64,000 nucleotides of DNA, taken from contig NZ_LTAQ01000001.1 of assembly GCF_001590835.1 (NCBI RefSeq), positions 208,357 to 272,356 of the forward strand. Reading direction: 5' to 3'. The notes under the pieces are model-generated. The model was not told the origin of the DNA and ran no database searches. It worked only from the letters and a program-made list of their open reading frames with translations. Shown here piece after piece: positions 22,943 to 24,258 of this stretch. A program made the translations under genes and the position numbers. Source of the stretch: Bacillus gaemokensis (lineage in GTDB: Bacteria; Bacillota; Bacilli; Bacillales; Bacillaceae_G). Position 1 is the stretch's first letter. The number at the start of each line of letters is the position of its first letter.

Positions 22943-23016
22943 GAAGTCATTATAGGAAATAATATATAGATTATCATGTTTTTAGAAAAGATGCTACATC
23001 GAAAGGAGAGATTATT

Positions 23017-24258
23017 ATAAAGGCAAGTGGTATCATCGTTGAATATAACCCTTTTCATAACGGTCATTCTTATCATGTGCAACAAACAAAAAAGTTAACA
23101 CAGTCTGACGTTACAATCGCCGTAATGAGCGGTCCTTTTCTACAACGTGGCGAGCCAGCCATTGTATCAAAATGGCATCGTACAAAGATGGCATTAGCTG
23201 GTGGAATTGATCTCGTCGTAGAACTACCCTACGCGTTCGCGACGCAAAAAGCTGAAACATTTGCAAACGGATCCATCTCTATCTTAAATGCCCTTGGCGT
23301 CTCTGAAATTTGCTTTGGTAGTGAAGACGGAAAAGTTCAGAACTTCTATAACACCATCTCTTTGCAACAAAAGGAAAAAGATACTTTCAATCGCCTTGTA
23401 CAGCAATTTATGGATGCTGGAAACAGCTATGCAAAGTCCACTTCTGAAGCTTTTTCGCATATCCAAACAAACGCCAATGCTGTTGATATGTCCCAGCCAA
23501 ACAATATATTAGGTTTACATTACATTGAAGCAATTCTTTCACAAGAAAGTTTAATCCATGCACATACCATACAAAGATTTGCATCTCATTATCATGATGA
23601 AACTTTTCAAGATGATCGCATCGCAAGCGCAACCAGCATTCGGAAGCAATTATTTCGTACAGACAATTCTTTCACGACGATTTATCCATATGTGCCAAAA
23701 CATACTGCATCTCTTTTAGAACGCTATAAACACGCACATAACACGTTGCATAGCTGGGAGGAGTATTTCCCCTTTTTTAAATATAAACTCATGACAATGT
23801 CTTCTCAGGAGCTACAACATATATATGAAGTGGAAGAAGGATTGGAGCATCGAATTTTATCCAAAATACATACAACTTCGTCATTTCTTACTTTCATGGA
23901 AGCATTAAAAACAAAACGTTATACATGGACTAGATTACAACGAGCATGTACACATATTTTAACAAATACAACAAAAGAAGAACTAGCACGAGCAAATATA
24001 GAAAAGCACTCTCCATATATCCGCCTGCTTGGTATGTCCCAAAAAGGGCAAGCTTATATTTCGCAAAATAAAAAGAAAATAGAACTTCCACTCCTTACTC
24101 ATACGAAGACATTTCAACATCCAGTACTAGATATAGAACGAAAAGCAAACGCTGTTTATTTCTCTATACTGCAAGAGCCTTTGCGCATGAAATGTATACA
24201 AAAAGATATGACACAACACCCAATTCGCTACGATGAAACAAACGGAATTTTTTTATAA
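23017..24258 (+). CDS. tmcAL: tRNA(Met) cytidine acetate ligase TmcAL (YlbM), apparent ATA start
   Basis: ATP-dependent enzyme that makes N4-acetylcytidine at the wobble base of elongator tRNA-Met, using acetate. From ATA at 23017 the protein is 413 residues and begins (M)[19 protein letters not shown], close to B. subtilis YlbM, with the HNGH nucleotidyltransferase motif at residues 14-17. Later blocks are [13 protein letters not shown] and [14 protein letters not shown] SATSIRKQL. The first conventional start is GTG at 23077, after the catalytic motif. AAAGGAGAG (23002-23010) lies 8 bases before ATA. The frame is open from 22963 and contains no ATG, GTG, TTG or CTG before 23077; ATT at 23014 is the other option. 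Confidence 0.88.

Follow-up and report, generated by a model that had tools for sequence, protein, structure and literature searches.

The window analysed here (64,000 nucleotides of Bacillus gaemokensis DNA, to which all coordinates refer unless another contig is named) carries tmcAL (ylbM), the gene for tRNA-Met cytidine acetate ligase. Upstream of it, on the opposite strand, lie a DUF177/ylbN-type gene, rpmF and a GerR/RsfA-type gene, and downstream follow genes for a SepM/ylbL-type protease and an RssA-like patatin, then ylbJ, coaD and rsmD, in the usual Bacillus gene order. A 17-pair inverted repeat followed by a T-rich stretch (24308-24347), probably a terminator, separates tmcAL from the convergent ylbL-type gene; no tRNA genes were found in the window. 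The features of the tmcAL start region are the following:

22914..22942, + strand: promoter-like TTGTCA-17-TATAAT ahead of tmcAL, with 11 of 12 consensus matches; the leader would be about 70 bases long
22963 onwards, + strand: tmcAL frame codons TAT ATA GAT TAT CAT GTT TTT AGA AAA GAT GCT ACA TCG AAA GGA GAG ATT ATT ATA AAG GCA AGT GGT ATC ATC GTT GAA TAT AAC CCT TTT CAT AAC GGT CAT TCT TAT CAT, then GTG 23077
22991..23020, + strand: short upstream frame ATG...TAA, its stop overlapping the ATA (ATAA); no ribosome site (-0.8 kcal/mol)
23001..23008, + strand: 8-base contiguous anti-Shine-Dalgarno (anti-SD) match GAAAGGAG, duplex energy -12.9 kcal/mol
23002..23008, + strand: Shine-Dalgarno (SD) core AAAGGAG, with an 8-base spacer to ATA 23017
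23017..23019, + strand: ATA, proposed initiation codon, at residue 1 of solved TmcAL and at the start column of 155 other tmcAL loci
23017..24258, + strand: proposed tmcAL coding region (ATA start, 413 codons, stop TAA)
23047..23070, + strand: NPFHNGHS codons (HNGH at 23056-23067), lost if the start is GTG 23077
23077..23079, + strand: GTG, first standard start in the tmcAL frame (ORF listing), likely mis-called; duplex energy -6.0 kcal/mol

Direct reading and the ORF listing agree that the tmcAL frame spans 22963-24258 on the + strand and that its first ATG, GTG, TTG or CTG is GTG 23077, with none among the 38 preceding codons. The first-pass annotation had stated that no standard start precedes this GTG, that a start there loses HNGH and that gene calling would deliver a shortened protein; all of this is borne out, since the ORF caller indeed picks GTG 23077 and gives a 393 aa product. 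A run of 38 codons without NTG would not be unusual on its own; it becomes meaningful in tmcAL because the start position of the orthologues aligns there.

Translated from 23017, the frame matches the NCBIfam profile NF010191 with 511 bits (cut-off 360), aligned from profile position 2, while from 23077 the score drops to 460 bits and the alignment begins at profile position 21. The protein also matches PF05636 (461 vs a cut-off of 27), and a start at 23077 forfeits the CTP_transf_like match PF01467. Its best PDB matches are the solved TmcAL structures (5y0p, E = 1.8e-121); the enzyme of 5y0n-5y0q (listed as UPF0348 protein B4417_3650 and presumably B. subtilis TmcAL) is orthologous and aligns from residue 2 to the end, but differs from the window gene in that its start was taken as an ordinary Met codon. 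In the printed alignment residue 2 (K) is the first residue aligned to 5y0p, at chain position 21 (an offset that we took as a tag), and in the results table it also aligns with chain position 2 of the Thermotoga structure 5y0r; hence, the ATA falls on residue 1. By family membership, the window protein would acetylate C34 of elongator tRNA-Met, and HNGH, its nucleotide-binding motif, is contained in the product only if the start lies upstream of 23056-23067.

Within the ribosome site AAAGGAGAG (23002-23010), AAAGGAG ends 8 bases before ATA 23017 and 5 before ATT 23014, in line with the first-pass annotation. The anti-SD duplex energies were -12.9 kcal/mol for ATA 23017, -6.0 for GTG 23077, and -0.8 and -1.6 for the upstream ATGs. 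We stress that this strength is not exceptional among window genes, 7 of 37 others reaching or exceeding -12.9 kcal/mol at their best candidate start, as do 11 of the 116 ATG-started tmcAL loci. What sets tmcAL apart is the codon: 50 other stop-to-stop ORFs of the window were scanned against NCBIfam, and 38 proved usable (of the other 12, 10 gave no match and 2 matched only internally or in part). In the resulting 39 genes (tmcAL included) an ATG, GTG or TTG was looked for in an interval reaching from 25 codons upstream of the expected start to 10 codons downstream of it. Such a codon was found in 37 of the 39; rsmD has an ATG at codon 3, just outside the range, its profile being longer, and tmcAL is the sole gene without a standard start near the expected one.

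Across 156 distinct tmcAL loci, the column corresponding to ATA 23017 holds ATG in 116, TTG in 19, GTG in 10, CTG in 7, ATA in 3 and GTA in 1. Some of the TTG and GTG loci may start elsewhere, since further in-frame standard starts lie upstream in 12 of 19 and 2 of 10 of them, respectively; the GTA locus has an in-frame ATG 7 codons upstream. The search of genome contigs recovered 15 tmcAL loci (best 58% identical; ATG at the column in 14 and TTG in one, from Ectobacillus funiculus) and the search of the family 19 genomes with tmcAL (best 60% identical), while plasmids and phages held only more distant copies or pieces and the viral contigs contributed a single contig (L035/L036). ATA itself occurs in the window, in L035 (the single close relative read) and in one further genome, L018. 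L035 (77% identical to the window gene) lies at one end of a prophage contig from IMG/VR; it keeps AAAGGAGAG and the ATA, and has no ATG, GTG or TTG before the GTG that matches window 23077. L018 (genome G003) carries AGAAAGGAGG, 8 bases and then ATA, with a 10-base anti-SD match of -18.4 kcal/mol (-12.9 in the window and L035); its tmcAL could instead start at one of the in-frame ATG codons found 9 and 14 codons upstream, which by eye have no good ribosome site.

The anatomy of the start site, the alignment of its codon with orthologous starts and its presence in three loci are direct observations, and the start anatomy proposed in the first-pass annotation is confirmed. Its further claim, that tmcAL starts at ATA 23017, is well supported by these comparisons, given that 152 of the 153 distinct loci without ATA have ATG, TTG, GTG or CTG in this column and that L035 retains both ATA and ribosome site. 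The recurrence of ATA at the corresponding position in relatives points to a genuine start of low expression and away from an error in the sequence. The neighbouring ATT, offered as another start by the same annotation, fared worse. Initiation at ATT 23014, ATT 23011 or another non-standard upstream codon would give an N-terminal extension, and either ATT has something to recommend it (23014 sits 5 bases from the SD and 23011 is retained in L035); however, ATT 23014 is ACC in L035, ATT 23011 lies just 2 bases after AAAGGAG and the orthologue start column coincides with the ATA, which makes a start at these codons highly improbable.

The codons between the ATA and GTG 23077 were compared between the window and L035. 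Codons 2-20 comprise 14 identical, 3 synonymous and 2 non-synonymous pairs (against 168, 131 and 94 in codons 21-413), and their base changes at codon positions 1, 2 and 3 number 2, 0 and 4; therefore the stretch ahead of GTG 23077 looks protein-coding, as judged on few sites. In the same frame, the 54 bases upstream of the ATA show 1, 2 and 3 changes, too few to judge. These data bear on the proposal that the protein starts at GTG 23077 (393 aa) and the conserved stretch before it is untranslated, which can invoke the GTG as the first standard start of the frame and its recurrence at the same position in L036, from the contig of L035. It is nevertheless very unlikely, as it drops HNGH and the PF01467 match, has an upstream duplex of merely -6.0 kcal/mol and leaves codons 2-20 varying like protein-coding sequence (again, on few sites).

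The conservation of ATA between the window and L035 is by itself weak evidence, because 6 of the 8 Ile-ATA codons of the window outside the start column are also unchanged in L035; ATA is not rare in the gene (10 of 413 codons, the start column counted). Both loci have intact 413-codon frames sharing the ATA, in which synonymous codon differences (134) outnumber non-synonymous ones (96), so that a sequencing error or a decaying gene, which the first-pass annotation had named as a way in which its proposal might fail and for which we found no support, is a nearly negligible prospect.

Departure from ATG at this position is not confined to the ATA loci. The column is non-ATG in 17 of 21 family loci (19 genomes, the window and L035) vs 23 of 135 elsewhere (loci not independent by descent), with CTG in 7 and TTG in 5 of the 21, and this distribution shows what appears to be a shift of tmcAL in this family to weak starts. 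In seven genomes of the family (L022, L024, L025, L026, L028, L030 and L032) the start column reads CTG, GGAGGTG lies 7 bases before it and the upstream part of the frame contains no ATG, GTG or TTG; their tmcAL is likely CTG-started. Median SD energies of tmcAL loci by start codon were -10.2 (ATG), -12.5 (TTG), -10.6 (GTG), -13.0 (CTG) and -12.9 kcal/mol (ATA); the 10 ATA and CTG loci differ from the 116 ATG loci (Mann-Whitney p = 1e-5), the rows not being independent by descent. As a positive control we used infC, long known for its AUU start, and recovered ATT, preceded by an SD of -13.2 to -14.3 kcal/mol, ahead of the conserved N-terminal codons in all 8 related genomes examined (L165-L172).

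Another route into the frame could begin at the short upstream frame: ribosomes would start at ATG 22991 and reach the tmcAL frame either by terminating at TAA 23018-23020 and reinitiating at the AUA that overlaps it, or by a -1 slip. In its favour, L035 keeps this arrangement (ATG CTA...TAA with the ATAA overlap). On the other hand, no ribosome site precedes ATG 22991 (-0.8 kcal/mol), L001, L017, L019, L020 and L021 have no ATG CTA at the aligned position, and the ATAA overlap is absent in L018, where the conserved ATG CTA lies 27 bases from the ATA instead of the 26 seen in the window and L035, placing its ATG in frame with the ATA. Given this one-base difference in spacing, the loci have no reading frame in common in the upstream stretch, and we consider passage through the short frame unlikely.

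Searches of the leader returned no known RNA element up to E = 1 (22800-23200), no structure hiding the SD (the fold is no better than that of shuffles, z +1.05) and no both-sided change in a consensus structure (built on three rows, of which two share a contig). Promoter-like sites in the region number 7 vs 7.4 in shuffles, so that the one ahead of tmcAL stands as a consensus match only. It belongs to a pair of divergent promoter-like sites with overlapping -35 boxes (22892-22942; the count of such sites is not above that in shuffles), its partner on the - strand (TTGACA-17-TATAAT, 12 of 12) facing the ylbN-type gene.

On the contig of L036 a prophage with a tyrosine integrase (PF00589) and an HNH gene (9547-11300) terminates directly at the tmcAL promoter. 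Close similarity of this contig to the window begins only at TTTTTTCTTTACACTATAATG, hence the window-type -35 box is replaced there, and the tmcAL promoter looks like a prophage attachment site. At 6917-9384 of the same contig (IMGVR_UViG_2547132164_000004), a prophage encodes an AimR-type arbitrium receptor (PF22871, 98 bits), upstream of which three small ORFs (63, 40 and 49 aa) lie on the same strand. These are rich in DPGG, EPGG, NPGG, DPGVG and DPGTG units, of the arbitrium signal type, and possibly form a multi-signal arbitrium peptide array.

The history of the ATA was approached with a tree of 34 TmcAL proteins from which the start codon was left out. The window and L035 pair together (100/100), while L018 groups with the TTG-started L020 and L021 (96/88) and then with L001 (98/92). 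A single clade of the three ATA rows was rejected (AU p 0.029, a modest value for a group defined by its codon before the tree was built), and the 8-row clade containing them has TTG in 3, ATG in 1 and GTG in 1 of the remaining 5 rows. Thus, the distribution of ATA probably reflects either two gains or an ancestral ATA in the 8-row clade that was repeatedly lost.

We reason, at a probability of about 0.83, that tmcAL initiates at AUA 23017 by means of a strong SD, and that the weak codon holds TmcAL low and dependent on IF3. The SD helix 8 bases upstream would select the AUA, which the initiator tRNA would decode as (formyl)methionine; the codon would limit the amount of TmcAL, and this amount would in turn depend on how strictly initiation is policed by IF3. 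A gene caller choosing GUG 23077 would predict the 393-residue protein, which lacks HNGH. The ribosome start at AUA, the low yield and the role of IF3 are what we infer from the arrangement, the low yield being expected by analogy with ccpN.

Among the matches listed in the open-licence literature, no paper was found on a tmcAL with a non-standard start; the anatomy itself is a further case of the infC/ccpN type known in Firmicutes. PMC13009471 reports for S. aureus AUA starts in infC, ccpN and citZ and an AUU start in cvfC1, with predicted extended SDs in infC, ccpN and cvfC1. According to the same paper, reporters of ccpN, citZ and cvfC1 yielded about 10% of AUG in poor medium (ccpN up to 30% in rich medium), the position of the ccpN start comes from Ribo-Ret mapping and was put to the test with reporters, and its AUA is conserved in B. 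subtilis (PMC13009471); IF3 rejects near-cognate starts, and E. coli infC is autoregulated, as cited there.

The likeness of tmcAL to infC lies in a near-cognate AUH start with a strong SD (ATT in 8 of 8 related genomes here, AUA in S. aureus; PMC13009471), whereas IF3 itself rejects such codons and TmcAL has no known action on initiation. With ccpN of S. aureus and B. subtilis tmcAL shares AUA and a strong SD, conserved in ccpN (PMC13009471); unlike TmcAL, the ccpN product is a transcription repressor and its start was mapped experimentally, that of tmcAL being predicted from sequence. A further case is a GntR-family gene of B. anthracis A16R, in which, according to PMC4589699, no ATG, GTG or TTG lies between a detected peptide and the upstream stop, and a GAGG ribosome site precedes a CTG. 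It differs in gene and in codon, and there a peptide and a GFP fusion showed that the stretch is translated, the CTG start being only proposed (PMC4589699).

Autoregulation, also put forward in the first-pass annotation, found no evidence. The known substrate of TmcAL is elongator tRNA-Met, and start codons are decoded by the initiator tRNA. That an AUA start sits on the enzyme guarding AUA is a striking coincidence. Acetylation of C34 of elongator tRNA-Met by TmcAL hinders this tRNA from reading AUA, and methionine at AUA increases when TmcAL and TilS function are both lost (PMC12514573). The start might conceivably act as a sensor, slack discrimination between AUG and AUA (through low IF3, an altered initiator pool or a changed C34 modification) giving more TmcAL and thereby sharper AUA decoding, but we hold this to be unlikely. 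AUA-specific sensing is disfavoured by the relatives that use CTG, TTG or GTG at the same position, and feedback of TmcAL through its own start codon is unsupported, initiator tRNA not being its known substrate. For these two reasons we read the weak tmcAL start as a putative general throttle and not as a sensor.

If initiation at AUA 23017 is correct, any 393 aa annotation from GTG 23077 in this lineage lacks the nucleotide-binding motif and needs 20 more residues, and tmcAL, a fidelity enzyme, would join infC and ccpN as genes throttled by a near-cognate start.
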